From positions 1 through 39,527 of the forward strand of contig JAQYWG010000005.1 of assembly GCA_030145085.1 (NCBI GenBank): 39,527 bases of DNA. The letters run 5' to 3'. This document shows positions 2,652 to 34,155 of the stretch, one piece after another. The notes beneath the pieces were generated by a model, which was not told where the DNA came from, searched no databases, and was given only the letters and a program-made list of their open reading frames with translations. Position 1 is the stretch's first letter, and every line of letters begins with the position of its first letter. Made by a program: the position numbers and the translations under genes. Source of the stretch: Thermodesulfobacteriota bacterium. Its GTDB lineage: Bacteria; Desulfobacterota; BSN033; WVXP01; G020346125.

Positions 2652-3944
2652 TCACATTCCGTGCCCCATGAGCAGCCTAGGCAGAATCAGAGAAATCCAC
2701 GGGATAAAGGTCACCGCGAGCAAAACGGCAAAAATTCCCAAAATATATGGCAACAGTTCCCTGCTCAAGGTGCCGATGGACACCTGGCTGATGCTCGAAA
2801 CGGAGTAAAGGCTCATGCCCACCGGCGGAGTCAGAAGCCCCAGCATCGAAGCAAGGGTCATGATAACCCCGAACTGTACCTCATCGATACCAAAGCGGGC
2901 GATCAGCGGCATGAACACCGGAATGGTGATCACAAATACAGCGATGCCTTCGATGAAGCAGCCCAGGATTAAAAGGATCGCGGTAATCATCGCCAGCAGG
3001 GTGAACTGTGAAGTCGTAAACGCGGTCAGGCCGGTAATAACTTGCTCGGGAATTTTCTGCCGGATCAACAACCAGCCAAAGAATCCTGCGGCCGAGATAA
3101 TAAACATGACCCGAATCGTGTAAACGATCGTCTCCCAGAATATCGTGGGCAGGTCTTTAAGCGTGAATCCCTTGTAGACCACCAGACCGAGAAACAGAGC
3201 GTACAGGGATGCGACAACCGCCGCTTCTGTGGGGGTAAACATCCCCCCCAGGATTCCGCCTATGATGATGACGGGTGTGCCAAGGGGCAAAGCGGCTTCC
3301 TTGGCGCTGGTCAGAAGCTCACCGAGGGAGGCCCGGTTTTCCTTTGGGTACCTTCGAAAGCGCGAGATGATGAACACGCCGATCATTAGGGCGATGCCCA
3401 TCAACGCACCAGGGATGAAGCCGGCGAGGAAGAGCTTGCCCACAGAGACCCCGGTCAGGCTACCATAGATGACGAAGGGGATGCTGGGCGGAACCACGGG
3501 GCCAATGGTTGATGAGGCAGCGGTGATAGCCGCCGAGAATTTACGCTCATAGCCGCTGTCGACCATTGCCTTCATCTCGATTAGGCCGAGTCCGGCCGCG
3601 TCCGCCACTGCGGACCCGGACATGCCTGAAAAGATCATGCTGGCTACCACATTTACCTGTCCCAGACCGCCCCAGATATGGCCCACCAGAGCCTTGGCGA
3701 AGCGGAAGACCCGGTGCGTAATTCCCCCGGTATTCATTAGATTGCCGGCCAGAATAAAAAAGGGGATGGCGAGGAGCGTAAAGGCCGTGGTGGAGGAGTA
3801 CATGCGCTGGGCTACCATGGTCAGGACATGGGCCTCCCCCATGAAGATGAAGGCCAGGACCGCTGTGAGGCCCATGGCAACGGCTATGGGGACGCCCAAC
3901 AAGATAAACCCGACCAAGCCCACAAAAATGATCAGGGTGGTCAT
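2652..3944 (-). CDS. dctM: TRAP transporter large permease subunit (DctM)
   Basis: A 430-residue polytopic membrane protein with the DctM pattern throughout: an N-terminal VGFILLGVPIAVAMGL helix, LLAIPFFILAGNLMNTGGI, SGSAVADAAGLGLIEMKAM, TAASSTIGPVVPPSIPFVIYG, and the C-terminal LGLLTPPVGMSLY. The length matches the family (about 425-435). It forms the translocation channel of a TRAP system for a carboxylate or sugar acid. It lies 23 bases after dctP and 10 bases before dctQ. The SD (GAGG) is close to the ATG. Confidence 0.95.
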   Translation of the reverse strand: MTTLIIFVGLVGFILLGVPIAVAMGLTAVLAFIFMGEAHVLTMVAQRMYSSTTAFTLLAIPFFILAGNLMNTGGITHRVFRFAKALVGHIWGGLGQVNVVASMIFSGMSGSAVADAAGLGLIEMKAMVDSGYERKFSAAITAASSTIGPVVPPSIPFVIYGSLTGVSVGKLFLAGFIPGALMGIALMIGVFIISRFRRYPKENRASLGELLTSAKEAALPLGTPVIIIGGILGGMFTPTEAAVVASLYALFLGLVVYKGFTLKDLPTIFWETIVYTIRVMFIISAAGFFGWLLIRQKIPEQVITGLTAFTTSQFTLLAMITAILLILGCFIEGIAVFVITIPVFMPLIARFGIDEVQFGVIMTLASMLGLLTPPVGMSLYSVSSISQVSIGTLSRELLPYILGIFAVLLAVTFIPWISLILPRLLMGHGM

Positions 3945-3967
3945 ACCCTCGCCATCCCATCCCGCGA

Positions 3968-4966
3968 TTATCTCACGGAGTCAACCATCTTCAGAAATTC
4001 TTCCACGTTCTCCTTGCCCGAATATCCGGCAATCCGGTCCCAGGCCGGCTTCATCAGCGCCCTGAACTTCGCGACATCCGGATTGGTAACCACCATGCCG
4101 GCACCTTTGAGCTTCTGCAGGAGCGTTTCGTCTTCCTTCTGCAGGGTTTTGCGCATGAAATCCCCCGCTTTCTTGCTCTCTTCCCGGATGATGCTCTGCT
4201 GTTTTGGGGGGAGCTTGTCCCAGGTGGCCTTGCTGATCACGTGTACCATGGAGTTGTACACATGGCGAGTGATGGCCAGGTACTTCTGCACCTCATAGAG
4301 CTTGAAGTGGTAGATCACTGAGAGGGGATTGTCCTGCCCGTCCGCCACCCCCTGCTTCAGGGACATGTATAGTTCGGGAAAGGCGATCTTGGTGGTCACG
4401 GCGCCCAATGCCTCCATGGTGGCCTGGAGCTGGATCTCGGGGGGAACGCGCATCTTCAAACCCTTCATGTCATCCGGTGAGTTGATTGCCCGCACGTTGT
4501 TCGTGATGTTTCGGAACCCCCACTCCCAGTTGGACAGATGCACCATCCCTTGTTTTTGGATATCCGGTCCAGCCCAACCCATAAAGGGACCGTCCAGAAC
4601 TCGGTAGGCGTGAGCATAGTCGTTATATACGAAGGGGAGCATCACCACGCCAAACCTCTTGGAATACTTGTCCAGCTGACCCTGGGTCGGCAAGCCCATG
4701 TCGATGGCGCCCAACTTAATCTGCTCGAGCTGCTCCGGAGGAGAGCCCAACTCATTGGCGGGATATACCGTCACCTTGATCTTCCCGCCGGTTCGCTTCT
4801 GAACCGCCTTGGCGAACATCTCGGCGGCCAGGTCCCCGGGATGGCTGTCCGCTGCGAAGTGTGCGAACCTCAACTCAACGGCCTTTGCCCCTTCCAGCGA
4901 GCCGGCGAATACGACCAGGCCCGCTCCGAGAAAGAGAACCAGAAAAAATAGACTTGTTCTTTTCAT
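3968..4966 (-). CDS. dctP: TRAP transporter periplasmic solute-binding protein (DctP)
   Basis: The 332-residue protein starts with a Sec signal peptide (about residues 1-29: MKRTS, a hydrophobic core, then AKA). The mature part begins with VELRFAHFAADSHPGD and includes ELGSPPEQLEQIKLGAIDMG and GLKMRVPP. The arginine of the last motif usually binds the ligand carboxylate in DctP proteins. The start at 4966 is favoured by a strong AGGAGGT eight bases upstream; a further-upstream frame start would bury the signal peptide. The ligand cannot be read from the sequence, but downstream pdxA2 and upstream sugar-isomerase genes suggest an aldonate or a related sugar acid. Confidence 0.94.
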   Translation of the reverse strand: MKRTSLFFLVLFLGAGLVVFAGSLEGAKAVELRFAHFAADSHPGDLAAEMFAKAVQKRTGGKIKVTVYPANELGSPPEQLEQIKLGAIDMGLPTQGQLDKYSKRFGVVMLPFVYNDYAHAYRVLDGPFMGWAGPDIQKQGMVHLSNWEWGFRNITNNVRAINSPDDMKGLKMRVPPEIQLQATMEALGAVTTKIAFPELYMSLKQGVADGQDNPLSVIYHFKLYEVQKYLAITRHVYNSMVHVISKATWDKLPPKQQSIIREESKKAGDFMRKTLQKEDETLLQKLKGAGMVVTNPDVAKFRALMKPAWDRIAGYSGKENVEEFLKMVDSVR

Positions 4967-5080
4967 GACCAATACCTCCTTTTTTTGGGTTCTCAATTTC
5001 CACCGGGAAACTCGACTTCAAGCTTCGCCGAGTGGAAGCCAGCCAATCACAAAAAACGGTAAACATGCCAGCCGTTTTCT

Positions 5081-5941
5081 TCAATCTTGATTCAGTTCCC
5101 GATTGATATAATCTAGGGATCCTCTCAGCACATTCCGTATTTCCGCAAGCGGCACCGCAGCAGCGCCAGGGTCAAGTCTGATTTGATATTCCGTATCACG
5201 CTTGAAACGGAGGGGGAGTTCAATGCTCATGGGAGGGACCCACTTCTCCTGGGCTAGGGCTTTGAAGATCGCCCCGTAATCGGTCACTCCCTTGCCGATC
5301 TCCACAAATACCCACTCGGCTCCGGCTGGTTTGATCTCCTTGAGATGAAAATGAGCCGAAAAGGGTAGGGCATAACGGAAATCATCCTCCGGTTTGACCG
5401 TCCCTTTTGAATAGGAAAAAACATTTGAGAAATCGTAGTTCAGTCGCACCCATTGCGATCCGATGCGCTCAATCAGAGCCGCTCCAGTCTTTCCAGTGCT
5501 GACCATGTTTTCCGTGCCGTCTCCTGGGTTCTCGAGGGTTATGATTAGATCGAGATCCTCCGCCACAGAAATCAGTGCCTCGATATTCTTCAGGAAAAAA
5601 GCTTCCTCACTGACTCGGGCCGTATTGGTATGAACGAATTTGGCGCCGAGGGCTTTGGCGAACTCCATTCTCCTCTTGAAGGCATCGGGCGAGCCGGCCT
5701 GCCCGAGATCCATGTGGGCCCCCAGCGCAACCACCTTGAGGCCGTTTTCGCTCACGGACCGGCAGAGCTGATTGGCATTTCCCGGGGTGAAATATTCTTC
5801 AGCGAACTCTTCGTAGTACGACGCGATTAGAGCTGGTTCAACATACGTTGCCCCCAATTCAGAGATTTCCCTGAGGGCCGTTTTGAAATCATGCCCGTGG
5901 TAGGCAAGGGTGTTCACTGCAATAATCGGTTCGGTGTTCAC
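5081..5941 (-). CDS. Sugar phosphate isomerase/epimerase (TIM-barrel, AP-endonuclease-2-like)
   Basis: The 286-residue protein follows the xylose-isomerase-like TIM-barrel pattern. It opens with IIAVNTLAYHGHDFKTALRE and has LGAKFVHTNT, a predicted metal-ligand glutamate in TLENPGDG, an aspartate in RLNYDFSNV, HFHLKE, and a C-terminal SIELPLRF. Such enzymes isomerise or epimerise keto sugars or sugar acids. The GTG at 5941 overlaps the stop of the upstream cupin gene (GTGA), implying translational coupling; the longer frame back to 5986 would run far into the cupin gene. The exact substrate is unknown. Confidence 0.82.
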   Translation of the reverse strand: MNTEPIIAVNTLAYHGHDFKTALREISELGATYVEPALIASYYEEFAEEYFTPGNANQLCRSVSENGLKVVALGAHMDLGQAGSPDAFKRRMEFAKALGAKFVHTNTARVSEEAFFLKNIEALISVAEDLDLIITLENPGDGTENMVSTGKTGAALIERIGSQWVRLNYDFSNVFSYSKGTVKPEDDFRYALPFSAHFHLKEIKPAGAEWVFVEIGKGVTDYGAIFKALAQEKWVPPMSIELPLRFKRDTEYQIRLDPGAAAVPLAEIRNVLRGSLDYINRELNQD

Positions 5942-6345
5942 GGCTGGCCCTGTTCCTCGCTTGCCCCCTCGGCAGCCCGGACGCACCGCTCAAGGTTCTC
6001 CCGGGCGGTATATCCAGGGACAAAAACGGTGGCCAGTTTGATGGATTCAACGCCGGTATTGATGATCTGATGCATCTCTCCAGCTCTTACCCACAGCGCC
6101 ATGTCAGGCTCGATGGGTATCTCCTTGCCCTCACAGACCGAGATGCCCCGACCCGAAAGGATCTGAATCAGTTCGGGCCGGTCGTGCTTGTGATAATCCG
6201 TCTTGCTCCCAGGGTCAATAATCGCATGGCTGTACGTGATTTCAGGAACGTCTCTGGTATCCGGCGCCAGCATCACCTTGATGTGCCGCTTATAGGGTTC
6301 CTTAATGGTCATACTTCTTTCTTCCCAGCATTTAATGACTTCCAT
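5938..6345 (-). CDS. Single-domain cupin protein
   Basis: A small protein of about 135 residues with both cupin motifs: PGSKTDYHKHDRPELIQILSG (metal ligands His52, His54, Glu58) and PDMALWVRAGEMHQIINTG (a further histidine). This fold binds a divalent metal and is often a sugar isomerase, lyase or sensor. It is the first gene of the leftward operon, about 95 bp from the promoter at 6439-6468, and overlaps the isomerase gene by four bases. The start is uncertain: AAGGAG precedes an ATG at 6357 too closely and one at 6345 at 12 bases; an ATG at 6312 is also possible. Confidence 0.8.
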   Translation of the reverse strand: MEVIKCWEERSMTIKEPYKRHIKVMLAPDTRDVPEITYSHAIIDPGSKTDYHKHDRPELIQILSGRGISVCEGKEIPIEPDMALWVRAGEMHQIINTGVESIKLATVFVPGYTARENLERCVRAAEGASEEQGQP

Positions 6346-11098: not shown

Positions 11099-11235
11099 AC
11101 ATCACCTCCTGAGTTCGGATCTCCTTTTTCAAAGTATAGGAGGTCTGCGGAAGTCTGGCAAGCGCCTCACCTTCGCCTTCCTCTATACGGCATCCATTTT
11201 AAAGGATTATCTTCTCACCTTATTTTAAATCATGT

Positions 11236-11241
11236 TATAAT
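11236..11241 (+). promoter_or_regulatory. Possible -10 element of the DUF1295 operon
   Basis: A perfect TATAAT lies 42 bases before the first gene of the rightward lipid operon, within an AT-rich stretch. No good -35 hexamer is at the expected distance, so it may need an activator or be incidental. Confidence 0.35.
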
Positions 11242-11282
11242 TAGGTTTAATGTTAGGGATCACTTGATAAAAGGAGATGACA

Positions 11283-12053
11283 GTGACGACGTTGTTTGCG
11301 CTAGAGACAGCGGTCATTGGGGTTTACATGACGATATGGTTCCTGATCGCCCTCCGGCTGAGACGAAATGACGTGGCAGATATTGCCTGGGGGGGAGGGT
11401 TTATCATTGCCGCCTTCATCGCTCTATTCGCTGCAGGAACAGTAACGCTGCGCTCGGCTATCGTAACGCTACTAGTTTTGATCTGGGGCGTGAGGCTGGC
11501 CATACACATCGGTCTCAGGAGCTCACGCAAAGGGGAAGACCCTCGCTACCGCGCATGGCGCGAGTCGTGGGGGAGATTCTTTATTGTCCGCTCTTTTTTC
11601 CAGATTTTTATGCTCCAAGGCCTTCTGCTCCTTGTCATCTCTTTCCCCGTGATCCAGATTAATGTGGCGCCAACTAGCCCCCTTACCCTCCTGGATGGCC
11701 TGGGAATCGCCGTGTGGCTCACGGGCTTCTTTTTCGAAGTGACAGGAGACTGGCAACTGAAGCAGTTCGTCCAGAACCCCGCAAATAGAGGAAAACTCAT
11801 TAATACCGGACTTTGGCGCTACAGCCGGCACCCTAACTACTTCGGCGAGGTGACGCAGTGGTGGGGAATTTACCTCATCGCCCTTTCCACGCCTCGGGGA
11901 TGGATAACCATCCTCGGGCCGATCACGATAACGGTCTTGATCCTTTTTGTCTCCGGAATTCCGATGCTGGAGAAAAAATACCATGGCAGACCGGAGTTTG
12001 AGGCCTACAAACGGCGGACCAGTGCGTTCTTCCCGCTGCCGCCAAAGCAATGA
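11283..12053 (+). CDS. DUF1295 membrane protein (steroid 5-alpha-reductase-like)
   Basis: The protein of about 256 residues has five to seven membrane helices and the DUF1295 signature: ADIAWGGGFI, IWGVRLAIHIGLR, EDPRYRAWRESWG, and the C-terminal GLWRYSRHPNYFGEVTQWWG with GIPMLEKKY. The last block resembles the NADPH-binding part of steroid reductases and isoprenylcysteine methyltransferases. Members often reside beside CFA synthase and DUF1365 genes and are thought to reduce or modify lipid double bonds; the reaction is unproved. AAAGGAG touches the ATG at 11277 but lies six bases from the GTG at 11283, so GTG is preferred. It heads an operon of six genes. Confidence 0.88.
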   Translation: MTTLFALETAVIGVYMTIWFLIALRLRRNDVADIAWGGGFIIAAFIALFAAGTVTLRSAIVTLLVLIWGVRLAIHIGLRSSRKGEDPRYRAWRESWGRFFIVRSFFQIFMLQGLLLLVISFPVIQINVAPTSPLTLLDGLGIAVWLTGFFFEVTGDWQLKQFVQNPANRGKLINTGLWRYSRHPNYFGEVTQWWGIYLIALSTPRGWITILGPITITVLILFVSGIPMLEKKYHGRPEFEAYKRRTSAFFPLPPKQ

Positions 12054-12064
12054 AGGAGACGCTT

Positions 12065-12481
12065 ATGTGGCATACCCTAAAGGTTTATCTTTTGCTGCTT
12101 CCGGTCCTTTTTGTTCTCGATTTTCTCTGGCTGGGGGTCCTGATGTCCGGTTTCTATAAAAGGGAACTGGGCCCATTCCTGAGGCTCTCGGGTGACGCCC
12201 TAAAGCCCATCCCCTGGGCAGCCATCGTGGTTTATCTCGCAATTCCGTTGGGGGTGGTTCTGTTCGCGCTTCCGCGGGTTTCAAGGGAGAACCTCTTGGC
12301 CTCGTCCCTCTTCTGGGGTTTTCTCTATGGTGTTGTTCTTTATGCTGTCTATGACATGACGAATTATTCGCTGCTAAAAGGCTGGCCCCTCAAGGTCTCC
12401 ATGGTTGATATATGCTGGGGGGGATTGTTGAACGCATCTGCCACATACGCTGCGGCCCTGCTCGACCGTTGGATGAAGTAG
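12065..12481 (+). CDS. DUF2177 family membrane protein
   Basis: A 138-residue protein of four helices with the family pattern VLDFLWLGVLMSGFY, an IPLGVVLFALPR helix, LFWGFLYGVVLYAVYDMTNYSLLKGWPL and a C-terminal VDICWGGLLNA. Its function is unknown; the family recurs in clusters with CFA synthase and DUF1295. The ATG at 12065 has AAGGAG six bases upstream, whereas the frame start at 12050 overlaps the previous stop with no ribosome-binding site of its own. Confidence 0.85.
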   Translation: MWHTLKVYLLLLPVLFVLDFLWLGVLMSGFYKRELGPFLRLSGDALKPIPWAAIVVYLAIPLGVVLFALPRVSRENLLASSLFWGFLYGVVLYAVYDMTNYSLLKGWPLKVSMVDICWGGLLNASATYAAALLDRWMK

Positions 12482-12517
12482 ACGAAACTCATTTGATACC
12501 CTGATAGGGGCAGCTCC

Positions 12518-13762
12518 ATGAAGATCGCTATTATCGGAGGGGGCATTTCCGGGATGGTTGCTGCCTATCTCCTGAACCAGGACCATGGCATCACGCTTTT
12601 CGAGGCCAATGATTACATTGGCGGGCATACGCATACGATTGACGCACCGGCGAATGGTAGGACCTATGCCGTGGACACGGGCTTCATCGTTTTTAATGAG
12701 ACGACTTACCCGAATTTCTGTGACCTGTTGAATAGGCTTGACGTTGCCTCTCAGCCCTCGTCCATGACGTTTAGTGTCAAGTGTGAAAAGACCGGCCTGG
12801 AATACGGTCCACATTCACTTAATACCCTCTTTGCCCAGAGAAAGAATTTGTTCTCCCCGTCTTTCTATCGTATGATTTTAGATATTTTCCGTTTCAGGCG
12901 GGATTTCGATCGCCTCCTCTCCGATGATCAGGGTGAGCAGGAACTCGGACCCTATCTGACCGGGAAGGGTTATTCCCGTCGATTCATCGATCATTTCCTT
13001 ATCCCTCTGGGGTCGTCGCTCTGGTCGGCGGACCCGAGGGACGTTCACAATTTTCCCCTCCAGACTTTTGTCCGCTTTTTTAAGAATCACGGCTTTCTCA
13101 AGGTGCGGCATTCCATCCGTTGGAGGGTCATCCAGGGGGGCTCCCGGGAATATGTTAAAAGGCTTACAGCCTCCTATAAAGAAAAGATCCGGCTGAAAAC
13201 GCCTATCCGAGGAGTGACCCGTCATCCCGATTACGTGGACGTGCTTCCGGCAAATGACGATCCCGTACGGTTTGATCATGTGTTGATAGCAACCCATAGC
13301 GACCAGGCGTTAGAATTGCTCACGGATCCTTCCCCGGCTGAAAGGGAGATCCTCGGGTCCATCCCGTACCAGGAAAACCTGACGGTCCTGCATACGGACA
13401 GTTCTATCCTCCCCAAGCACTCCTCTCTCTGGTCGAGCTGGAATTACCTCATCCCGGATGAGGAAGTTCGAAGGGCTGCCCTCACTTACGATATGAACAT
13501 CCTCCAGACGATCAGCGCGCAGGTTGAATTTTGCGTCACCCTGAACCGACCGGAAGCGATCGCCCCGGAAAAGGTCATCGGAACTTTTGTCTATCATCAT
13601 CCCATCTATCGGAAGGATGCTCCTCAGGCACAGCAGAGGCATGGAGAGATCAGCGGCAAGAACCGGACGCATTACTGCGGAGCATACTGGGGCTATGGGT
13701 TTCACGAGGACGGCGTGAAGGCCGCCCTGACCGCGTGCCGGTTCTTTGGAAAGGGACTTTAA
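12518..13762 (+). CDS. FAD-dependent flavin amine oxidase-like oxidoreductase
   Basis: The 414-residue protein begins with the dinucleotide-binding motif IAIIGGGISGMVAAYLL, followed by FEANDYIGGHTHT and the substrate-side VDTGFIVFNETTYPN. Near the C-terminus CGAYWGYGFHEDGVKAAL closes the FAD fold. This is the NAD/FAD-binding protein that commonly precedes DUF1365 and a CFA synthase. In Rhodobacter such gene families have been tied to furan fatty acid formation, so desaturation or oxidation of a membrane acyl chain is a reasonable guess. A weak GGGG ribosome-binding site is present. The gene ends one base before the DUF1365 start. Confidence 0.88.
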   Translation: MKIAIIGGGISGMVAAYLLNQDHGITLFEANDYIGGHTHTIDAPANGRTYAVDTGFIVFNETTYPNFCDLLNRLDVASQPSSMTFSVKCEKTGLEYGPHSLNTLFAQRKNLFSPSFYRMILDIFRFRRDFDRLLSDDQGEQELGPYLTGKGYSRRFIDHFLIPLGSSLWSADPRDVHNFPLQTFVRFFKNHGFLKVRHSIRWRVIQGGSREYVKRLTASYKEKIRLKTPIRGVTRHPDYVDVLPANDDPVRFDHVLIATHSDQALELLTDPSPAEREILGSIPYQENLTVLHTDSSILPKHSSLWSSWNYLIPDEEVRRAALTYDMNILQTISAQVEFCVTLNRPEAIAPEKVIGTFVYHHPIYRKDAPQAQQRHGEISGKNRTHYCGAYWGYGFHEDGVKAALTACRFFGKGL

Positions 13763-13763
13763 T

Positions 13764-14543
13764 ATGGAGAGCTGTCTCTACGAGGGGCATGTACGTCACG
13801 TGCGGCACAACCCCGTTCACAATGCCTTCCGCTACTCGGTCTTTTTCCTTTACCTGGATTTCGATGAACTCGGCAGGGTGTTTAAAGGCAGGTGGTTCTG
13901 GTCCATTGACCGATTCAACATTGCCTATCTCCGGAGGAACGACCATTTTGGCGATCCCTCCTTACCGCTGGAACAGGCGGTCCGCGACCTCGTTGAACGG
14001 AAGACCGGCAGACGGCCCTCTGGCCCCATTTGTATGCTGGCACACCTACGGTACTTCGGCTATAACTTCAACCCAGCAAGTATCTATTTCTGCTATGGCA
14101 AGGGTAAGGTGTCCGTCGAAACGATTGTGGTCGAGATTCACAATACGCCCTGGGGAGAAGTCTTCTGCTATGTCCTCGACGAGGCCAATAACGAGGGTAC
14201 AGTTAAAGACAAACGGTTTCGGTTCCCCAAGGCTTTCCACGTATCGCCTTTTATGGACATGGACCTTGATTATGATTGGCGATTCACGGAGCCCGGTAAT
14301 TCCCTGAACGTGAGTATGATTAACTTCGAACAAGGGAAAGAGATCTTCAAGGCCGACCTCACCCTGGAACGCCGTGAGATCACAGGTCGGAGTCTCGCCC
14401 GCGTTCTGACCCAGTATCCGCTCATGACCCTAAAGGTGATCGCGGCCATCTACTGGCAGGCGTTCAGGCTTTGGATCAAGGGAGCCCCTCTTTATACCCA
14501 TCCGGCCAAGCGCGGGACCATAACAGAGGCAACGAAACCATGA
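13764..14543 (+). CDS. DUF1365 family protein
   Basis: The 259-residue protein has the DUF1365 features: ESCLYEGHVRHVRHNPVHNAFRY, FFLYLDFDEL, HLRYFGYNFNPASIYFCY, EIHNTPWGEVFCYVL, KAFHVSPFMDMDLDYDW, and a C-terminal AIYWQAFRLWIKG. The many conserved histidines suggest a metal site but no structure is inferred here. The ATG at 13764 follows GGAAAGGGA; an upstream frame start at 13746 would overlap the FAD gene. Its TGA overlaps the ATG of the CFA synthase, which implies coupled translation and a shared pathway acting on membrane lipids. Confidence 0.9.
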   Translation: MESCLYEGHVRHVRHNPVHNAFRYSVFFLYLDFDELGRVFKGRWFWSIDRFNIAYLRRNDHFGDPSLPLEQAVRDLVERKTGRRPSGPICMLAHLRYFGYNFNPASIYFCYGKGKVSVETIVVEIHNTPWGEVFCYVLDEANNEGTVKDKRFRFPKAFHVSPFMDMDLDYDWRFTEPGNSLNVSMINFEQGKEIFKADLTLERREITGRSLARVLTQYPLMTLKVIAAIYWQAFRLWIKGAPLYTHPAKRGTITEATKP

Positions 14544-15895
14544 AAAAGAGCATCATCCCTTCAAGCCCCAGACCAGGCATTAGTATCGTCCCTTCCGGAC
14601 TGACCGGCATACTGGGCACAATAGCTAAGAAAACCATCGATTCCCATCTCACGAAAATTAGACGGGGACAGATCACCCTCATTGACAATGGGAAGCGCCA
14701 AGTATACGGAGAAACAGGCCCCTCGGTAAAGCTCCGCGCCACGGTTACAGTCCACGATCCGGCATTTTACACCGACATGGCCTTTGGCGGGAGTATCGGG
14801 GCTGCCGAAGCCTACATGGCCGGGTTCTGGTCCGCTGACAATCTCACTGCCCTCATCAGGATCATGGTCCTGAACCGAGAGGTACTCATGGGCATAGAGG
14901 GAGGGTTTGCACGGCTCACAGCACCTCTCCACAAGTTGATCTATGCCTTCCAGAAAAATACGAGGGATGGGAGCAGGAAGAACATCGCGGCCCACTATGA
15001 TCTAGGGAACGACTTCTACGCCCTTTTCCTGGACCAAACCATGACATACTCCTGCAACATCTTCGAACGCGAGGACACAACCCTTGAGGAGGCGGCGATC
15101 GCCAAGTACGATCGTATCTGCAGGAAACTCCGCCTCGGACCCCACAATCACGTGCTCGAAATCGGGAGTGGCTGGGGTGGATTTGCTATCCACGCAGCCA
15201 AAAAATACGGATGTCTGATCACGACCACGACAATCTCTAGGGATCAGTACGACCTTGCGTCGGAACGTGTCGAGAAGGCGGGGCTAAGGAACAGGATTGA
15301 GCTCCTGTTTGAGGATTACCGAGACCTTAAGGGGAAGTTTGATAGACTCGTCTCTATCGAGATGATCGAGGCCGTTGGTCATCACTTTCTCGATACCTTC
15401 TTCAAGGCCTGCAGCAACCTCCTGACGGACGACGGAATGATGGCCCTCCAGGCCATCACCATCACCGACCAGGCCTACGACGGGCAAGTCCGATCTCCAG
15501 ACTTCATCAAGCGCTACATCTTTCCCGGAAGCTTTATCCCCTCTGTAAGTGTCATAACCAGCTCCGTCGCGAGGGGCACGGACATGAAGCTTTTCCATCT
15601 TGAAGACCTCACTCCCCACTATGCGCAGACCCTCCGGGCCTGGCGAGAACGCTTCTTCAACCACATCGACGAGGTGAGGAAACTGGGTTATCCCGAGAGC
15701 TTCATCAGAATGTGGGAGTACTACCTCTGCTACTGTGAGGGGGGATTCTTGGAGCGGTATATTGGAGATGTACAGATGATCTTCACCAAACCGGACTGTA
15801 GACAGGATCCCATCCTGCCAATCCTTGGCAGGAATAACACATCAAGAATGTTAAACAAGGCTGTCGCCGCTACTCCGGAGCTCAAATCGGGCTAA
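14540..15895 (+). CDS. cfa: Cyclopropane-fatty-acyl-phospholipid synthase (first copy)
   Basis: A 451-residue SAM-dependent enzyme of full CFA length. The N-terminal lipid-binding region (residues about 30-140, with FGGSIGAAEAYMAGFW) is followed by HYDLGNDFYALFLDQTMTYSC near residue 152, the SAM motif VLEIGSGWGGFA near 204, SIEMIEAVGHH near 273, and the C-terminal YYLCYCEGGF active-site segment. It would methylenate or methylate the double bond of unsaturated acyl chains in phospholipids at the inner membrane. In this neighbourhood a related methylation, not cyclopropanation, is also possible. It overlaps DUF1365 by ATGA and is followed after seven bases by DUF2878. Confidence 0.92.
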   Translation: MKKSIIPSSPRPGISIVPSGLTGILGTIAKKTIDSHLTKIRRGQITLIDNGKRQVYGETGPSVKLRATVTVHDPAFYTDMAFGGSIGAAEAYMAGFWSADNLTALIRIMVLNREVLMGIEGGFARLTAPLHKLIYAFQKNTRDGSRKNIAAHYDLGNDFYALFLDQTMTYSCNIFEREDTTLEEAAIAKYDRICRKLRLGPHNHVLEIGSGWGGFAIHAAKKYGCLITTTTISRDQYDLASERVEKAGLRNRIELLFEDYRDLKGKFDRLVSIEMIEAVGHHFLDTFFKACSNLLTDDGMMALQAITITDQAYDGQVRSPDFIKRYIFPGSFIPSVSVITSSVARGTDMKLFHLEDLTPHYAQTLRAWRERFFNHIDEVRKLGYPESFIRMWEYYLCYCEGGFLERYIGDVQMIFTKPDCRQDPILPILGRNNTSRMLNKAVAATPELKSG

Positions 15896-15902
15896 TCATC
15901 GT

Positions 15903-16421
15903 ATGCGTAAGTTCATTAACGTTTTGTCCTTCCAGGTTGGCTGGTTTGCAGCAGTACTGGGTGTAGCCCACAACATGCCGTGGCTGAGTGTGGTTATTGT
16001 CCCGCTCGTACTCCTAATACATCTTGCAATGGCACCTGAGTGGCAGTCAGAGCTGCTTCTTGCCCTGGGGGCGGCAGTGACGGGGTTCGTTTTCGACACG
16101 GTGCTTATTTCGGCCGGTGTCTACTCCCCGGTGCCCTTTCTGTTTCCTCCTCACCTGAGCCCTCTATGGATGGTATTGCTGTGGGTCAACTTTTCGACAA
16201 CGCTCAACGTATCGCTCGGCTTCCTCAGGGGAAGATACTTACTCTCGACGGTCTTCGGCGCCATCGGTGGCCCCATGGCCTATTACAGCGGTGCCCGCCT
16301 GGGCGCCATGACTGTGATCCCTGCAACAGTCAACCTCATGATCCTCGGAATCGCATGGGCGGTTGCAGTGCCATTTCTGGTTTTCCTTTCATCAAAGATC
16401 ACCCCACAGCCGAAACGATGA
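15903..16421 (+). CDS. DUF2878 integral membrane protein
   Basis: The 172-residue hydrophobic protein has five or six helices and the DUF2878 pattern NVLSFQVGWFAAVLG, VTGFVFDTVLISAGVY, HLSPLWMVLLWVNFSTTLN, and GGPMAYYSGARLGA. The family is found downstream of CFA synthase in many Proteobacteria; the role is unknown but localisation with lipid enzymes suggests acyl-chain metabolism or membrane sensing. It closes the rightward operon and meets the DUF1499 gene tail-to-tail with only nine bases in between, leaving no room for a conventional terminator. Confidence 0.88.
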   Translation: MRKFINVLSFQVGWFAAVLGVAHNMPWLSVVIVPLVLLIHLAMAPEWQSELLLALGAAVTGFVFDTVLISAGVYSPVPFLFPPHLSPLWMVLLWVNFSTTLNVSLGFLRGRYLLSTVFGAIGGPMAYYSGARLGAMTVIPATVNLMILGIAWAVAVPFLVFLSSKITPQPKR

Positions 16422-16430
16422 CGGGCTTTC

Positions 16431-16871
16431 TCAGCGTTGCTCCCATGCCTTACGGATCTTTTCCACCCGCCTTCTGTTTACACCAAGATCCGAGTATCCG
16501 ATTCTCGACGCAGATCGAATATGAATAAGTTTCGCGGCATCGTCTAAACAAAATTCAACATCATCGACAAAACGGAATAATGCGCTCTCGAACTCCACAT
16601 GGAGATATGTGAGTGATTCCTGGATGATCGAGGCCCTTTTCATAGAACCGACGATTCTCTTGAGGTCGGCGATGGCATTGCTTGCGGTCGACTTGAAGGT
16701 TAAGGGTGCGATGGCATGGGCCTTGTCGGCGCTTTGGCTGGAGACACAGTTGGGCCTATCAGGGCATGGTGCCAGCATTCCGTCTCGTACGCCAAGATTC
16801 GATGGACGGATGCCGGAGCATGCGGACAGAAGACTTCCCAAGAAACCAATGATGATGACCTTTCCGTTCAT
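16431..16871 (-). CDS. DUF1499 lipoprotein
   Basis: The 146-residue protein carries a lipoprotein signal with lipobox LLSAC (Cys18). The DUF1499 core follows: LAPCPDRPNCVSSQS, then a central ALFRFVDDVEFCLDD and IHIRSASRIGYSDLGVNRRRVEKIR. The RVGYSDLGVNRxRVE block is the family hallmark. Function is unknown; members are often adjacent to CFA-type genes. It is the last gene of the leftward operon, 21 bases after the second methyltransferase. Confidence 0.9.
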   Translation of the reverse strand: MNGKVIIIGFLGSLLSACSGIRPSNLGVRDGMLAPCPDRPNCVSSQSADKAHAIAPLTFKSTASNAIADLKRIVGSMKRASIIQESLTYLHVEFESALFRFVDDVEFCLDDAAKLIHIRSASRIGYSDLGVNRRRVEKIRKAWEQR

Positions 16872-16892
16872 ATTCTCATGCCGGTTTGTTCT

Positions 16893-17939
16893 TTATTCTT
16901 TTCGGGTGTACCGGGGCCGAAAAAGGTAGTGCGCCACCCACCATTCCTGTCCGTTCCGGAATCCCCAGAGCTCGGCACAGGCCATGAAAAAGATCCTCCA
17001 CCTTTGGAACCATAGGGCCGCTTCTTTTCTGCCATAGGTTTTTTCGAAAATCCCCAATACTTGATCCTTGCGCACGTCAAGGTTTCGGAACCAGTGCTCC
17101 GATGTCCGTTTATAGTGCATGCCGCTCACCCGCCAATGGTGTTCCAGGACAACGTCGTCCTGGAAGTAGAGGAAAAGATCATCAGAGGGCATGATCCCGC
17201 CACTGAAGAAATATCTGCCCATCCAATTGTCCTCTCCCTCGGTCTCAAAGGTGTAGGCGTACTCCCTGTGGCAGAAGATATGGACGAAGAGCCGTCCGTC
17301 CGGCTTCATCCACTCCGCGATCCTCCGGAGAAGCTGTTTGTAGTTGCGCATGTGTTCGAACATCTCGACGGAGACGATCCGGTCGAACCGCTCAGCTGTG
17401 GTGAAATCGTTCATGTCCGATGTGATTACCGTAACGTTTCCAATCCCTTGATTCATGGCCTCGGTATGGATGAACTCGCGCTGTAGAGTGGAGTTCGAAA
17501 CAGCGGTGATCCGGCTTTTCGGGTAATGCTTCCCCATCCAGAGGGTGAGCGACCCCCAACCACATCCGAGTTCCAGGATATCCATCCCGTCCTTCAACCG
17601 CGCCCGCTCGCACGTGAGGTCGAGCATCTTTTCCTCGGCATCGTTCAGGCATTCTGTCCCATCGGAATAAAGACAGCAGCTGTATTTACGATGTTTTCCG
17701 AGCACCAGGCCAAAGAACTCGGGCGGGAGCTCGTAGTGTTGCCTGTTTGCTGCGTCGGTCAGTGCGGCAATGGGGCTCTGACACAGCCGCGCAATAAAGG
17801 CCTGCTTTTGATCGCAACGCGTCTCGGTGTTTCCCCAGTTTTCAATGCAGAGTCGTTTTCTATTTAAGGCCCGGATCCCGGCACGAATCAAGATGTCAGG
17901 AACCAAACCGGATTCGATGAGATGGATGAGAGTTTTCAT
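16893..17939 (-). CDS. CFA-synthase-like SAM methyltransferase (coclaurine N-methyltransferase-like, second copy)
   Basis: The 348-residue protein has [14 protein letters not shown] at 68-81, the SAM motif [16 protein letters not shown] at 121-136, [12 protein letters not shown] at 189-200, [14 protein letters not shown], and the C-terminal [30 protein letters not shown]. The MFEHMRNY and [11 protein letters not shown] blocks are those of the plant coclaurine N-methyltransferase branch and not of classical CFA synthase, so its substrate may differ from that of the first copy. It also lacks the long N-terminal lipid-binding region. It lies 18 bases after the radical SAM gene, in a three-gene operon. 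Confidence 0.88.
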
Positions 17940-17957
17940 CTTTATAATTGTTCTTTT

Positions 17958-19589
17958 TCAGACGGATGTGCTCTTCCGGTGTTGAATTCTTAAAAGTGTA
18001 GGTTGTTGGAAAAGATTGAGATAATTTGCAAACCCGGTCCAGAGGGATAAAGGGACTGTGGCCCAGCAGAGCAGCCGCTCTTTGACTGTAAGGTTGCCCA
18101 TATCTCGCTCAATCTCCCGGAGGAAGGCGTGGACCTCGGCCCTACGTTCCCTATTCGGACCAAAGAGAATGGCCGGGTAAATTCCCGCGACAGCACTTCG
18201 CACCTCAGCGGCCAGGCGGTCTGCCCTCCCCTGGAGGAGGTGATTTGAAGAACCCTTTAGATTTCGATACCCCTCGAACCATGTTCGGATAACACGCATC
18301 AACGACGGGCCTAGGATCTCGAAGCTCTTCCGGTACAGGTCGCGCTGGAGCTGTTCTATTTCGTCTGGACTGAAATGGGGGTGTCTGAAGTGCATGGAGA
18401 AGCCGTCAAAAGTCCGGTAATCGGGGTCCTCTCGGTATTCGGGGAGGTAGAGGTTCTCGGCAATGGCCCGACGGTAAAAGGGCGTGCGTGGGAATGCGAA
18501 ATAGATGAGGATCTGCCAGAGAGCGGGTCCGAGCTCTGTAAACCTGCGAAACTCCTTCAATACCTGCTCCCGATCCTGATAGGGGAACCCTATGATCATG
18601 GACGTAAGGATGGCAACGCCCCGGGACTTGAGGGATGTATAGAGCTCGGAGACCGGTTTGCCTCTGAGTTTATTATAACCCGATTCAGTGCCTTCGACGG
18701 CTGTCCAGACAACGTCAAAGCCCATTTCGGCTATCTCGTCTGCCGTGAATTGGGAGAGGCTCCGTACACTGCCAAAGCCCATGATGGAGAGCTGTTTGCC
18801 GTTTTCGCGAACGCACTTTAGGAATTCCCGGGCCCGCTTGGTTTGCGTGAAGAAGTCCTCGTCGATGATTATGAAGCCGTTGAGATTGTCTCCAGCCCTT
18901 TTTGACTCCTGCTCCATATGCAGAATGACATCGTACAGTTCACTGCCGCTTTGAATGAAGGGAACGTATTGCCGATTGAAGAAGTGGGAGGTGCAGCAGA
19001 AGTCGCAGCCATTGGGACATCCCAGACCGCCAGTAATATGCGCAACTTTTGTTCCGCGTGCATAGGAATACAGGCGGGGGGATTCAATCGGTGCATACGG
19101 GTGGTGAATCGGTTGGGTCACGTCCTCGCCCAGGAGCCTGCGCATGAAACCCACACCTTCCTCCCGGCAGATGTGGTCACCTAAAGGATAAAGCTGTTCG
19201 TCATTTAAGACAGTGCCGTACCCACCGAGGATGATCTTTGCCTTTGGGGAGTGTCTGCGGATGAGTCCTGCCATCCGCTTGACCTTGTGAAACGTGGCAA
19301 CGACGAAGTTGATACCGACGTAATCGTACGGGTGAGACTTCAGTTCACGGACAAATTCCCGCTCTGAGGGATAGTGGAGCACAACCGTTGGCGCTTGGAT
19401 GTTCTCAGCGATATAGTCCAGCCCCCAGCAGCGAATGACCTGGCGGTAGCTGAAAATCCCCTGTTCTCTTGTGACCTGAGCGTGGAAAAGTTCCGCTCCA
19501 ACGGAATCCCCTTCGCCTGGACCACCGAAAGGACGACAGACGGTTGTAAGCAAAATATTCGGCAATCCTCGTTCCTCCTGTGGAGGCAT
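17958..19589 (-). CDS. Radical SAM protein (B12-binding-radical-SAM type without a cobalamin histidine)
   Basis: About 543 residues. The N-terminal Rossmann-like part has DYVGINFVVATF and AKIILGGYGTVL as in B12-binding radical SAM enzymes, but no DxHxxG cobalamin motif is visible. The 4Fe-4S cysteines are at 191, 195 and 198 (CPNGCDFC). GFIIIDEDFF, TAVEGTESGYNKLRGK and MIIGFPYQDREQV are typical of the barrel. The C-terminal 150 residues are helical and have no assignment. Substrate unknown; operon partners point to lipids. The start is uncertain: ATG at 19655 or 19589, or a TTG at 19565, which uniquely has AGGAGG at eight bases and would give LPNILLTTV as the start. Confidence 0.85.
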   Translation of the reverse strand: MPPQEERGLPNILLTTVCRPFGGPGEGDSVGAELFHAQVTREQGIFSYRQVIRCWGLDYIAENIQAPTVVLHYPSEREFVRELKSHPYDYVGINFVVATFHKVKRMAGLIRRHSPKAKIILGGYGTVLNDEQLYPLGDHICREEGVGFMRRLLGEDVTQPIHHPYAPIESPRLYSYARGTKVAHITGGLGCPNGCDFCCTSHFFNRQYVPFIQSGSELYDVILHMEQESKRAGDNLNGFIIIDEDFFTQTKRAREFLKCVRENGKQLSIMGFGSVRSLSQFTADEIAEMGFDVVWTAVEGTESGYNKLRGKPVSELYTSLKSRGVAILTSMIIGFPYQDREQVLKEFRRFTELGPALWQILIYFAFPRTPFYRRAIAENLYLPEYREDPDYRTFDGFSMHFRHPHFSPDEIEQLQRDLYRKSFEILGPSLMRVIRTWFEGYRNLKGSSNHLLQGRADRLAAEVRSAVAGIYPAILFGPNRERRAEVHAFLREIERDMGNLTVKERLLCWATVPLSLWTGFANYLNLFQQPTLLRIQHRKSTSV

Positions 19590-19848
19590 CCTAAATGCCG
19601 CTAAGTTTTTAGAAAGCCTATCCTGGAACTTAAAGACTGCGAACAATAATATCATACCCTCAAAATGATATCAAAAGAGATTAAAGGGCCATGAGGAATG
19701 ATGAACCGATTGGTGTTATTGGCGCCAGAGGTATAAAGGGAAGCGACACGGGGAGGAGGCGCAGCGGAATTTTGAGTTCAAACTTTCAGCTTTTTAGCTC
19801 TTCAAGGGACGAGCAATGGGGACGTAGTTCAAAATATTCAAACTTAAC

Positions 19849-21411: not shown

Positions 21412-21587
21412 TTGCTCCGATCTTCAGAATAATCGATAATCGGCCACACCGGGATCAATTTTTCCTTGATTTTTGGGGAAAAATTATGAAACTATGGTTT
21501 CTGGTCTTCGGGCGAGGAGGAGGCACGCTTTTTGCTTCTGTACATTGGGCAAAAATGTATTCTTTGATCGAAGGAGCGAAATCTGAC

Positions 21588-22169
21588 ATGTCTTTGCTTA
21601 AGAGAACCCTGGGGATAAATGGAAAAGAACTCAGTCGCCGTTGCTTTCTCAAAGTGGGTGCCTTAGCCGCACTGGCTTGCGCATCACCACGGCTTGGTTT
21701 TGCGGCCGCGGGTGAATGCCTACAACTCGAAAGGTCTCTCTCCTTCTGCAACACCCACACAGGAGAGCACCTTGAGGCTGTTTACTGGAGTGGTGGAGAA
21801 TACGTCCCCACAACTTTGGCCGATATAAATTACATACTGCGAGATCACCGCACAGGCGAGGTTAAACCCATTAACACCCGGGTTTTAGATCTCCTCTTCG
21901 CCATGCGGGTGAAACTCAAACCCCTATGTCCCTTCCACGTCATTTCTGGCTATCGCTCGCCAAGGACAAACGCATTTCTGCGCAACTTTGGTAGAGGCGT
22001 TGGCAAAAAGAGCCTCCACATGTGCGGCAAAGCTATAGACATTCGCCTGCCCGGACTTTCCCTCTCCCTGGTGCATCGCGTAGCAATGGATCTGAAAGCC
22101 GGCGGGGTAGGGTACTATCCGCGTTCGAACTTCATCCATGTTGATGTCGGAAGGGTCCGTTACTGGTAA
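21588..22169 (+). CDS. mepK: DUF882/M15A murein endopeptidase (MepK/YcbK-like), Tat-exported
   Basis: The 193-residue protein starts with a twin-arginine signal (SRRCFLKVG, Arg17-Arg18, then a hydrophobic stretch and an AAA cleavage region). The catalytic part has HVISGYRSPRTN, LHMCGKAIDIR (His144, Asp151) and FIHVDVG (His184, Asp186), the M15 zinc ligands and base. E. coli MepK cuts 3-3 meso-DAP cross-links in peptidoglycan. Next door, tail to tail, is an L,D-transpeptidase that makes those cross-links. The ATG at 21588 is chosen because it puts the Tat motif at a normal distance; GGAG lies 12 bases upstream. Confidence 0.9.
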   Translation: MSLLKRTLGINGKELSRRCFLKVGALAALACASPRLGFAAAGECLQLERSLSFCNTHTGEHLEAVYWSGGEYVPTTLADINYILRDHRTGEVKPINTRVLDLLFAMRVKLKPLCPFHVISGYRSPRTNAFLRNFGRGVGKKSLHMCGKAIDIRLPGLSLSLVHRVAMDLKAGGVGYYPRSNFIHVDVGRVRYW

Positions 22170-22242
22170 ATCCACCTTTAAAATTGGTTCAAGGATCGAA
22201 TCTGCAGGGGGGTGCTCTGTATAGCATTTCCCACAAGGCTTT

Positions 22243-23934
22243 TTAACGGGTTGGAGGTGGTTCGTTGAGTGCCTCATCCAGCGGCTTATCGCGCCCGTAG
22301 ATGTCTTCCCGGTAATGGACCTTTCCACTTTCATCGACCCATGCCGTCCAGTAGAGCAGATGAACGGGGATCGGCTCCGGTAGCGGAACGATTTGCGTTT
22401 CCCGGCTATTGATCGCCGCGATTATTTTTTCCCGCGTCCATCTGGGATCGCTTCGTAATAGGTACGCTAATAATTCAAAGGGTTTTTCGATGCGGATACA
22501 GCCTGCGCTGAAATCGCGCCTAAGCCTTTGAAATAGTCCTTTGGCTGGCGTGTCGTGGATGTATACGCCGAACTTATTGGGAAACATGAATTTCACACGG
22601 CCAAGGGCATTCTTAGGCCCGGGTTCTTGGCGGAGTTTGAAGAAAAGATTTTCCTCCGTGATCTGTGTCCAGTCGACGGATTCGGGCTGGATTTCCGGAG
22701 CCCGGGCTTCCCAACTTTGGAAAACCCGGATGTTTTGCCTGGTTAAGTAATTGGGGTCTTCTTTTATCTTCGGTAATAGGTCCATACTGGCGATTTTCTG
22801 GGGAACATGCCAGTAAGGGTTCAGCTCCAGATACGTCATTTGGCCGCTGAAAACTGGGGTGTGCCAAAATCTTCTTCCCACGACAACCCGCATAGTCATT
22901 ATTATCCGGCCGTTTTCCACGACATCTAATTTGAAATTGGCAGCATTGACCAGTATATAGCGATGCCCGAAGTCATGGGGGAGCCAGCGCCATCGTTCCA
23001 AATTCAATTCAATTTGCCGCACCCGCTCTTCCATCGGCACATTCAGTGCCTTCAGCGTAGCAGGGCCAACAATTCCATCGACCCTTAGTCCGTGTCTCCT
23101 TTGGAATCCGTGAACTGCCAATTCCAGGATTTCATTAAAAAGATCTTCATCATCCATCGCGAGTATTCCGTCGAGATCGCCCGAGGCAGTCAGTCGGGAG
23201 CGCAGTGAGGCAACCCGCATTCCCTGATCGCCTCTTTGCAATGTTGGTCCCCTGGGCAACGCTGCCAACCCCCCCTTTTGCAGGATATCCCGGTACTGCA
23301 TGAGAGCCCGTTTCAATCGGATATAACCAGTGCGCTGTGGCCGTAAACTCTCCAGGGCCCTGTTGATTTGGTCTGCATCAAGCGCGCTTTGAAGAACCTG
23401 AGGCAAATCCGCGTCTCGATTTTTGACAAACCACTCTGAGTGAATTGTCTCAGGGTTTACGCGCCCCTTAAGCAAATGGGAGCCGTAAATGAGAAAAGCG
23501 TCCGTCAGGAGAAAATCGAGATCGGCTAGGTCATTAGGCTCGAGCGGCATGCCCCTTGCTTTGTTGTAGCGAATTTGGGCAACCAAAGCCTCAATGGTAC
23601 CCAAATGGTAGTCTGCAGGCCTCAGCCCTTCGGAGCGGGCCTCATGGATTGCGTTTACCAAAATCATTGCTTGGGACAACCAGCCATCGTCTGTGATCCA
23701 GGCTGGTTGAAATCCTCGACGGTAGTAGAAACGCGGTAGCACGTCCGATCCGCACAATAACTCCGCTCTGCAAACGATGTGTTGAGATTCCCTCGGGATC
23801 GTGATCCTATTTCGCAGTATCTCAGTTACTTGCTTGGACAAACTCCGGGCTAAAACGCCTTCACAAAGAATGGATACGGAGCCCCACACGAATATCAGTA
23901 CTATTAACGCGACTCTGTACATAAAAGGCCTCAC
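22243..23934 (-). CDS. ldtD: L,D-transpeptidase of the YcbB/LdtD type
   Basis: A 563-residue periplasmic enzyme. An N-terminal signal or membrane anchor spans about residues 5-30. A helical scaffold domain is followed by a peptidoglycan-binding domain near residues 230-300 (LQRGDQGMRVASLRSRL and GFQRRHGLRVDGIVGPATLKALNV), and then the YkuD catalytic domain with His460 (IHDTPAKGLF) and Cys479 (DFSAGCIR). The order matches E. coli LdtD. It forms 3-3 DAP-DAP cross-links that the convergent MepK-like enzyme could open. The tail-to-tail spacing is 73 bp. Confidence 0.92.
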   Translation of the reverse strand: MRPFMYRVALIVLIFVWGSVSILCEGVLARSLSKQVTEILRNRITIPRESQHIVCRAELLCGSDVLPRFYYRRGFQPAWITDDGWLSQAMILVNAIHEARSEGLRPADYHLGTIEALVAQIRYNKARGMPLEPNDLADLDFLLTDAFLIYGSHLLKGRVNPETIHSEWFVKNRDADLPQVLQSALDADQINRALESLRPQRTGYIRLKRALMQYRDILQKGGLAALPRGPTLQRGDQGMRVASLRSRLTASGDLDGILAMDDEDLFNEILELAVHGFQRRHGLRVDGIVGPATLKALNVPMEERVRQIELNLERWRWLPHDFGHRYILVNAANFKLDVVENGRIIMTMRVVVGRRFWHTPVFSGQMTYLELNPYWHVPQKIASMDLLPKIKEDPNYLTRQNIRVFQSWEARAPEIQPESVDWTQITEENLFFKLRQEPGPKNALGRVKFMFPNKFGVYIHDTPAKGLFQRLRRDFSAGCIRIEKPFELLAYLLRSDPRWTREKIIAAINSRETQIVPLPEPIPVHLLYWTAWVDESGKVHYREDIYGRDKPLDEALNEPPPTR

Positions 23935-26978: not shown

Positions 26979-27073
26979 TCATCTCACTCCTTTTTCCTTG
27001 ACACCATAACGTCGAGTATGGTAAAAAATTCAAGCAGTTGCGAATCTTTGAGCCAAAGGGTGGGGAGATAGAA

Positions 27074-32973: not shown

Positions 32974-34155
32974 ATGAGGGTGTGCTATCTCGATTGCTTC
33001 TCAGGCATCAGCGGGAACATGGTCCTCGGGGCCTTGATCGATATCGGTTTGCCGGAATCCATCCTCCTCGAAGAGGTTGCCAAGTTGGGGGTTGAACCAT
33101 TCAACATAGAGGTAAAACGGAATGAAAGGATGAGGATTTATGGGACCCATGTGAAGGTGAGGAGCAAAGGGGATGAAGGCCCTCAGCGTTCCTATCGCGA
33201 AATCAAACAGATGATCGAAGTAAGCCCATTGGATCTGCAGGTAAAGGACAGGAGCCTGGATATATTCCGTCGATTGGCCTCAGCCGAGGCTAAGATTCAC
33301 GGCGAAAAGATCGATGAGGTTCACTTTCACGAAATTGGCGCCCTTGACTCAATCGTAGATGTGGTGGGAGCTGCTGTTGGAATGAACCACCTGGCGATTG
33401 AGCGGGTATTTGCCTCCAGAATTCCCGTGGGGTCTGGGTTCGTTCTTGGGCAACATGGGAGATTACCCGTTCCAGCACCGGCCACCCTCGAGATATTGAA
33501 GGGGATTCCCATCTACTCTTCCTCCCTGAATGAAGAGCTGGTTACACCTACAGGGGCAGCCATTTTAACCTCCTTGTCCTCCGGCTTCGGTAACATTCCC
33601 GAAATGAGGATCGAAAAGGTGGGGTATGGATTGGGCGATAGGGTATTTGAGGGCATCCCTAACGTATTGAGGATTATTTTAGGAAAGGGTGATGGATCAC
33701 GAGAGGCGGACTGGGTTTGGGTAGTAGAGACTGATATTGACGATATGTCCCCCGAAATTTATGGCTATCTTATGGAAAAGCTTCCCGAGGCGGGAGCGCT
33801 AGACGTGACTTTCACTCCCATCCAGATGAAAAAGAACCGCCCCGGTATTACTATCAAAGTCCTCTGCTATGAAGCGGAGGTTGATATGATCATCGATACC
33901 CTCTTCAGGGAATCGACCTCCATCGGGGTGCGCCTCTATTCCGTCCGAAGGGCAAAACTGAGTCGAAGAACCGAGGAGGTGGAGACCAAATATGGCACGG
34001 TGAGGCTCAAGGTTTCCACTGACCATAGGGGTCGGGCAATTAACATAATGCCCGAGTATGAGGACTGCAAGAGAATTGCCGAGGCCATGGGAATTCCCCT
34101 CAAAGAAATCTATCGAGAAATCCCATCGGCGATGAAGGGTGCACCGGACAGGTGA
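32974..34155 (+). CDS. larC: Nickel insertion protein LarC
   Basis: The 393-residue protein has the LarC outline: YLDCFSGISGNMVLGALIDIGL at the start, RIYGTHVKV, AEAKIHGEKIDEVHFHEIGALDSIVDVVGAA with its metal-ligand histidines, ELVTPTGAAILTSL, then the C-terminal ferredoxin-like domain with VVETDIDDMSPEIYGYLMEKL and FTPIQMKKNRPGITIKVLC. LarC uses CTP to insert nickel into the pincer cofactor made by LarB and LarE. In Lactiplantibacillus plantarum the gene is read through a programmed frameshift; here it is one uninterrupted frame. It ends three bases before the DUF721 gene on the opposite strand. Confidence 0.95.
   Translation: MRVCYLDCFSGISGNMVLGALIDIGLPESILLEEVAKLGVEPFNIEVKRNERMRIYGTHVKVRSKGDEGPQRSYREIKQMIEVSPLDLQVKDRSLDIFRRLASAEAKIHGEKIDEVHFHEIGALDSIVDVVGAAVGMNHLAIERVFASRIPVGSGFVLGQHGRLPVPAPATLEILKGIPIYSSSLNEELVTPTGAAILTSLSSGFGNIPEMRIEKVGYGLGDRVFEGIPNVLRIILGKGDGSREADWVWVVETDIDDMSPEIYGYLMEKLPEAGALDVTFTPIQMKKNRPGITIKVLCYEAEVDMIIDTLFRESTSIGVRLYSVRRAKLSRRTEEVETKYGTVRLKVSTDHRGRAINIMPEYEDCKRIAEAMGIPLKEIYREIPSAMKGAPDR

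Follow-up and report, generated by a model that had tools for sequence, protein, structure and literature searches.

Furan fatty acids are membrane lipids with antioxidant properties, and the bacterial route to them was solved only recently. In R. sphaeroides and R. palustris, methylated furan fatty acids are formed on phospholipids through UfaM (of the CFA family), UfaD (RSP1091) and UfaO (RSP1090, a DUF1365 protein) (PMC7380195). The furan oxygen derives from O2, and the activity of UfaO and UfaD is O2-dependent in R. sphaeroides (PMC7380195). The second methyl group is added by FufM, a distant relative of UfaM (26% identity) that R. palustris carries in addition to a ufaM-ufaO-ufaD set (PMC7380195). 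LIME1 is a plant homologue of FufM (PMC10940516). In Chlamydomonas, singlet oxygen induces CFA1, CFA2, DUF1365, DUF2177 and DUF1295, each in a SAK1-dependent manner, and CFA2 is also listed as the coclaurine N-methyltransferase CPLD27 (PMC4067076). We found six of these and related families together on a Legionella plasmid, in the order FAD-DUF1365-CFA-DUF2878-DUF1295-DUF2177, and a PhrR-type version of the cassette on a Salinivibrio plasmid.

We identified nine open reading frames over positions 11277-19655 of the window (the whole 39,527-nucleotide stretch of Thermodesulfobacteriota DNA analysed here). The original prediction had described nine genes on two convergent strands with nine bases between them, and our ORF and Pfam checks agree with it in every strand and family. 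The rightward genes encode a steroid-reductase/PEMT-like DUF1295 membrane protein (11277-12053, +; PF06966, E=4e-79), a DUF2177 membrane protein starting at ATG 12050 or 12065 (12050-12481, +; PF09945, E=4e-34), an FAD oxidoreductase that is a candidate UfaD-type acyl desaturase (12518-13762, +; PF01593/PF13450, positioned as in UfaD-UfaO-UfaM), a candidate UfaO-type DUF1365 protein (13764-14543, +; PF07103, E=2e-81), a CFA/UfaM-type acyl methyltransferase (14540-15895, +; PF02353, E=1e-87; CFA structures 5z9o, 7qos and 6bqc) and a DUF2878 membrane protein (15903-16421, +; PF11086, E=6e-38). They are separated by a possible 4-base overlap (if ATG 12050 is used), 36 bases, 1 base, a 4-base overlap and 7 bases. 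The leftward genes, spaced by 18 and 21 bases, encode a radical SAM protein with a B12-like N-terminal domain lacking DxHxxG (17958-19655, -; weak PF02310 and PF04055 matches), a coclaurine-N-methyltransferase-like relative of CFA synthases that is a candidate FufM-type furan methylase (16893-17939, -; PF02353) and a DUF1499 protein with a signal-peptide-like start in its sequence (16431-16871, -; PF07386, E=1e-40). The two strands meet between the DUF2878 stop at 16421 and the leftward end of DUF1499 at 16431, with positions 16422-16430 between them.

A consensus scan placed a promoter-like site (TTCTCA-18-TATAAT, extended TG; 11212-11241, +) 35 bases 5' of the DUF1295 ATG; the scan returned as many such sites as are expected by chance, so this one is weak. 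The Rfam scan gave zero matches. The cluster has a GC content of 52-53% and its base composition is not distinct. Misassignment of the contig was rejected, as a congener has a PurQ 98% identical to the one encoded on this contig and the flanking DNA is 94-99% identical, over a congener contig that stops at window position 26987. Elsewhere in the window, TRAP transporter genes DctM and DctP lie near sugar-isomerase-like and FGGY-kinase genes (2652-4996), apparently a carbohydrate-acid uptake locus. A DUF882/M15 peptidase gene adjoins a convergent L,D-transpeptidase-like gene (21486-23934; peptidoglycan modification), and a nickel insertion protein of the LarC family is encoded at 32974-34152 (+; PF01969).

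Eight of the nine genes are of a known kind, namely the UfaD (FAD)-UfaO (DUF1365)-UfaM/CFA cassette with the accessories DUF1295, DUF2177, DUF2878 and DUF1499. The FAD oxidoreductase, DUF1365 protein and CFA-type methylase by which the furan pathway is recognized lie in one operon, and both the grouping of these families and the parallel to furan fatty acids, as originally proposed, are supported by the described pathway (PMC7380195). The pathway is also defined by an O2-dependent conversion of vaccenate into a methyl-furan acyl chain. We ourselves assign UfaD to the FAD oxidoreductase, from operon position and family. In a structure alignment, the CFA/UfaM-type protein has Gln at the position of the bicarbonate-site His. 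Plant cyclopropane synthases reportedly share this Gln; it is therefore not diagnostic of UfaM, and we dropped the residue as a discriminator between UfaM and ordinary CFA synthases.

The coclaurine-type protein retains the FEHM motif, and its best solved relative is the plant coclaurine N-methyltransferase 6gkv (E=1e-83). This relationship makes a role like that of FufM the simplest interpretation, with a FufM-type ring methylase as the most probable identity of the enzyme. We take LIME1 to be of the coclaurine-methyltransferase type. The cassettes compared, which came from Nitrospirota, Phycisphaerae, Acidobacteria and the window's own phylum, have the same parts, often with a coclaurine-type gene convergent on or beside them, so the convergent layout with two CFA-type enzymes is ordinary. 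Two CFA-type enzymes and convergent operons, as pointed out in the original prediction, are thus common elsewhere and not special, and the coclaurine-type enzyme fits a role already described for FufM (PMC7380195, PMC10940516). Two neighbours of cassettes in other genomes are a membrane fatty acid desaturase gene (PF00487; L036:11803-12765, -) directly 5' of FAD-DUF1365-CFA genes and a gene for a chalcone-isomerase-like protein (PF16036; L041:13682-14284, -) ahead of DUF1295 in a Nitrospirota cassette.

The ninth gene product belongs to the radical SAM superfamily, as indicated by a CxxxCxxC motif (C213-PNG-C217-DF-C220), whose three cysteines are invariant across 19 aligned sequences, and by fold matches to a partial TIM barrel. 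The AlphaFold (AF2) model (mean pLDDT 87.8) consists of a B12-like Rossmann domain, a partial TIM barrel and a C-terminal helical domain. The alignment with homologues starts only around residue 31, residues 1-28 lack a reliable model (pLDDT < 50), and a promoter-like -10 box at 19646-19674, of a kind no commoner than chance, overlaps the first ATG. For these reasons, M23 at 19589 is a likelier start than 19655.

The nearest solved relative of the radical SAM protein is AprD4 (6fd2; fold E=5e-15, profile E=6e-9). AprD4 is a radical SAM diol dehydratase and has the reductase AprD3 as its partner (PMC5461906). DxHxxG, the motif of class B cobalamin-dependent radical SAM methylases, is absent after the first strand in the window protein and in every aligned homologue. 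Given this absence and the relationship to AprD4, the sequence and the model make a non-methylating hydrogen-abstraction enzyme likelier than a B12 methylase. DxHxxG is not absolutely required for cobalamin-dependent methylation in TsrM. A TsrM-like cobalamin-dependent methylase adding an extra methyl group to the chain would agree with the B12-like N-terminal domain (the PF02310 match sits at its cut-off), with weak NCBIfam matches to PhpK-type P-methyltransferases and with the presence of TsrM and CysS among the fold matches; we consider it improbable, however, as DxHxxG occurs in no aligned member of the family and a dehydratase is the best match by both sequence and fold.

A scan of the genome collection with the radical SAM protein recovered eight close relatives (61-72% identity), whose records carry the labels Phycisphaerae, Nitrospirota, Deltaproteobacteria and Acidobacteria, as well as distant ones at 31-41%. 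Searching phyla added a ninth close relative (G623), and three relatives at 47-48% identity came from the window's own phylum. Members of the close family are rare: three group searches gave 2/296, 1/231 and 1/193, with the centre genome counted each time. DUF1365 is present in eight of the ten close-family genomes (G000, G400-G402, G405-G407 and G623) and was not found in the other two (G403 and G404); it occurs in 0/10 genomes with distant (31-48%) radical SAM relatives (Fisher p=0.0007) and in 27/296 and 29/395 genomes as background (7-9%). The close-family gene faces the cassette 3' end in five of the six loci whose downstream flank is visible (the window, L009, L010, L015 and L041); four other close-family contigs, which end <400 bases from the radical SAM gene, were left out of this count. 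The gene is directly convergent on the cassette in L010, L015 and L041; a cytochrome-type gene intervenes in L009, and DUF1499 and the coclaurine-type gene intervene in the window. In the Phycisphaerae record, the radical SAM gene and the cassette share a 28.5-kb contig, with about 16 kb between them. The association with the cassette is statistically non-random and spans several phyla. Hence the link to DUF1365/CFA neighbourhoods put forward in the original prediction held up in this survey, recurring in other genomes.

The radical SAM gene might instead be a passenger that shares a neighbourhood or niche with the cassette and does not act on its lipids. Of 26 sampled Nitrospirota-group genomes with DUF1365, 24 are without the close family, the gene is not cotranscribed with the cassette and is not adjacent to it in L013 (the one visible-flank locus where it lies away from the cassette), and part of the co-occurrence stems from four related Nitrospirota genomes. 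We nevertheless regard this explanation as rather unlikely. The association covers several phyla and persists when the four Nitrospirota are counted once (DUF1365 in 5/7 against a 9% background, p=1e-4); DUF2177 lies directly 5' of the radical SAM gene in L011; and a different radical SAM subfamily also converges on CFA in L058, a locus from a different genus within the same phylum as the window. The L058 protein (593 residues; 4484-6265, +) is 32% identical to that of the window and groups with L003, outside the close family; its gene ends 12 bases from the CFA end of a furan-type cassette. This occurrence of two radical SAM subfamilies at the same cassette spot is the strongest hint of a functional link. 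Given the 24/26 genomes without it, we regard the radical SAM protein as an accessory confined to certain lineages and not a core part of the cassette.

In the cassette tree, the window groups with L054, a Nitrospirota cassette whose genome has no close-family radical SAM gene, and the pair stands next to four Nitrospirota cassettes accompanied by such a gene (support 0.95). This placement, at a distance from the majority of cassettes in the window's phylum, suggests horizontal exchange. The genomes of the closest cassettes, L054 and L061 (the latter 76% complete), are without the close family, and therefore the enzyme is dispensable.

The host genome (G000, 99% complete) has no match to COX1 of heme-copper oxidases or to cytochrome bd, which is awkward for an O2-requiring furan step; such a step might proceed solely with incidental O2, or a different product might be made. 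The Phycisphaerae close-family genome likewise has neither oxidase, yet keeps DUF1365. An anaerobic host could make only cyclopropane, methyl-branched or methyl-diene chains with the oxygen step silent, in keeping with the absence of both oxidases and with the O2 dependence of UfaO and UfaD noted above. We find this doubtful, given that DUF1365, the oxygen inserter, is retained, that COX1 occurs in six of the nine other close-family genomes and that short exposure to O2 may be enough. Because COX1 is thus present in 6/10 close-family genomes, the radical SAM enzyme is not simply an anaerobic substitute for O2, an idea that is unsupported as a general rule.

Considering the above, we propose, with a probability of about 0.55, that the region encodes membrane acyl-chain tailoring of the methylated-furan-fatty-acid type with a non-methylating, AprD4-like radical SAM accessory. 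Against this reading stand the missing oxidases of the host, the lack of the enzyme in the L054 and L061 genomes, the separate position of its gene in L013 and the two close-family genomes that show no DUF1365. By analogy with the named homologues, the CFA/UfaM-type enzyme would methylate an unsaturated phospholipid acyl chain, the UfaD-type FAD enzyme would convert the methylated chain to a methylated diene, the UfaO-type DUF1365 protein would oxygenate the diene to a furan, given O2, and the FufM-type coclaurine enzyme would add a second methyl group. DUF1295, DUF2177, DUF2878 and DUF1499 would serve as accessories. We speculate that the radical SAM protein probably abstracts hydrogen from the chain or an intermediate, in a dehydration, dehydrogenation or rearrangement. 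A new membrane lipid as end product is plausible but unproven. We offer more tentatively the idea that a cobalamin-free radical SAM family, with subfamilies recruited more than once, carries out C-H activation on methylated or furan membrane acyl chains independently of O2 and yields an undescribed lipid. The pathway type is known, and the newly recognized part is the non-random radical SAM accessory. If true, the link to the furan pathway would add unexpected chemistry and could help to explain why an O2-dependent pathway is kept in genomes without terminal oxidases. In the literature searched, radical SAM enzymes and furan fatty acids are not mentioned together, and the link appears unreported there.

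Compared with AprD4, the radical SAM 1,2-diol dehydratase nearest to it by profile and fold, the window protein is about 14% identical and has an extra C-terminal helical domain. None of the nine cluster genes, nor any other in the window, encodes an AprD3-type NAD(P)H reductase, and we rejected a direct partner of this kind in the cluster. The tetraether/membrane-spanning lipid synthases Tes and GDGT-MAS likewise belong to the radical SAM enzymes and have lipid tails as substrates; a Tes-like tail-coupling identity was rejected, as GDGT-MAS is found neither among profile matches to E=10 nor among the best 50 fold matches listed. The PhrR/ChrR-type operons of Vibrio, Salinivibrio, Aeromonas and Legionella (FAD-DUF1365-CFA-DUF2878) share their core gene order with the window; unlike it, they carry photolyase and SDR genes and no radical SAM gene, and no ChrR-type regulator was identified near the window cassette. 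As in organisms with FufM (RPA0924) or plant LIME1, the window has a second, divergent CFA-superfamily methylase; this protein falls with plant coclaurine-type N-methyltransferases, and its proposed likeness to FufM runs through LIME1. With the UfaM-UfaD-UfaO pathway (RSP2144/1091/1090 in R. sphaeroides, RPA2569-2571 in R. palustris), the locus shares the same three adjacent families, FAD, DUF1365 and CFA, to which it adds, in a host without known terminal oxidases, DUF1295, DUF2177, DUF1499 and the radical SAM protein.
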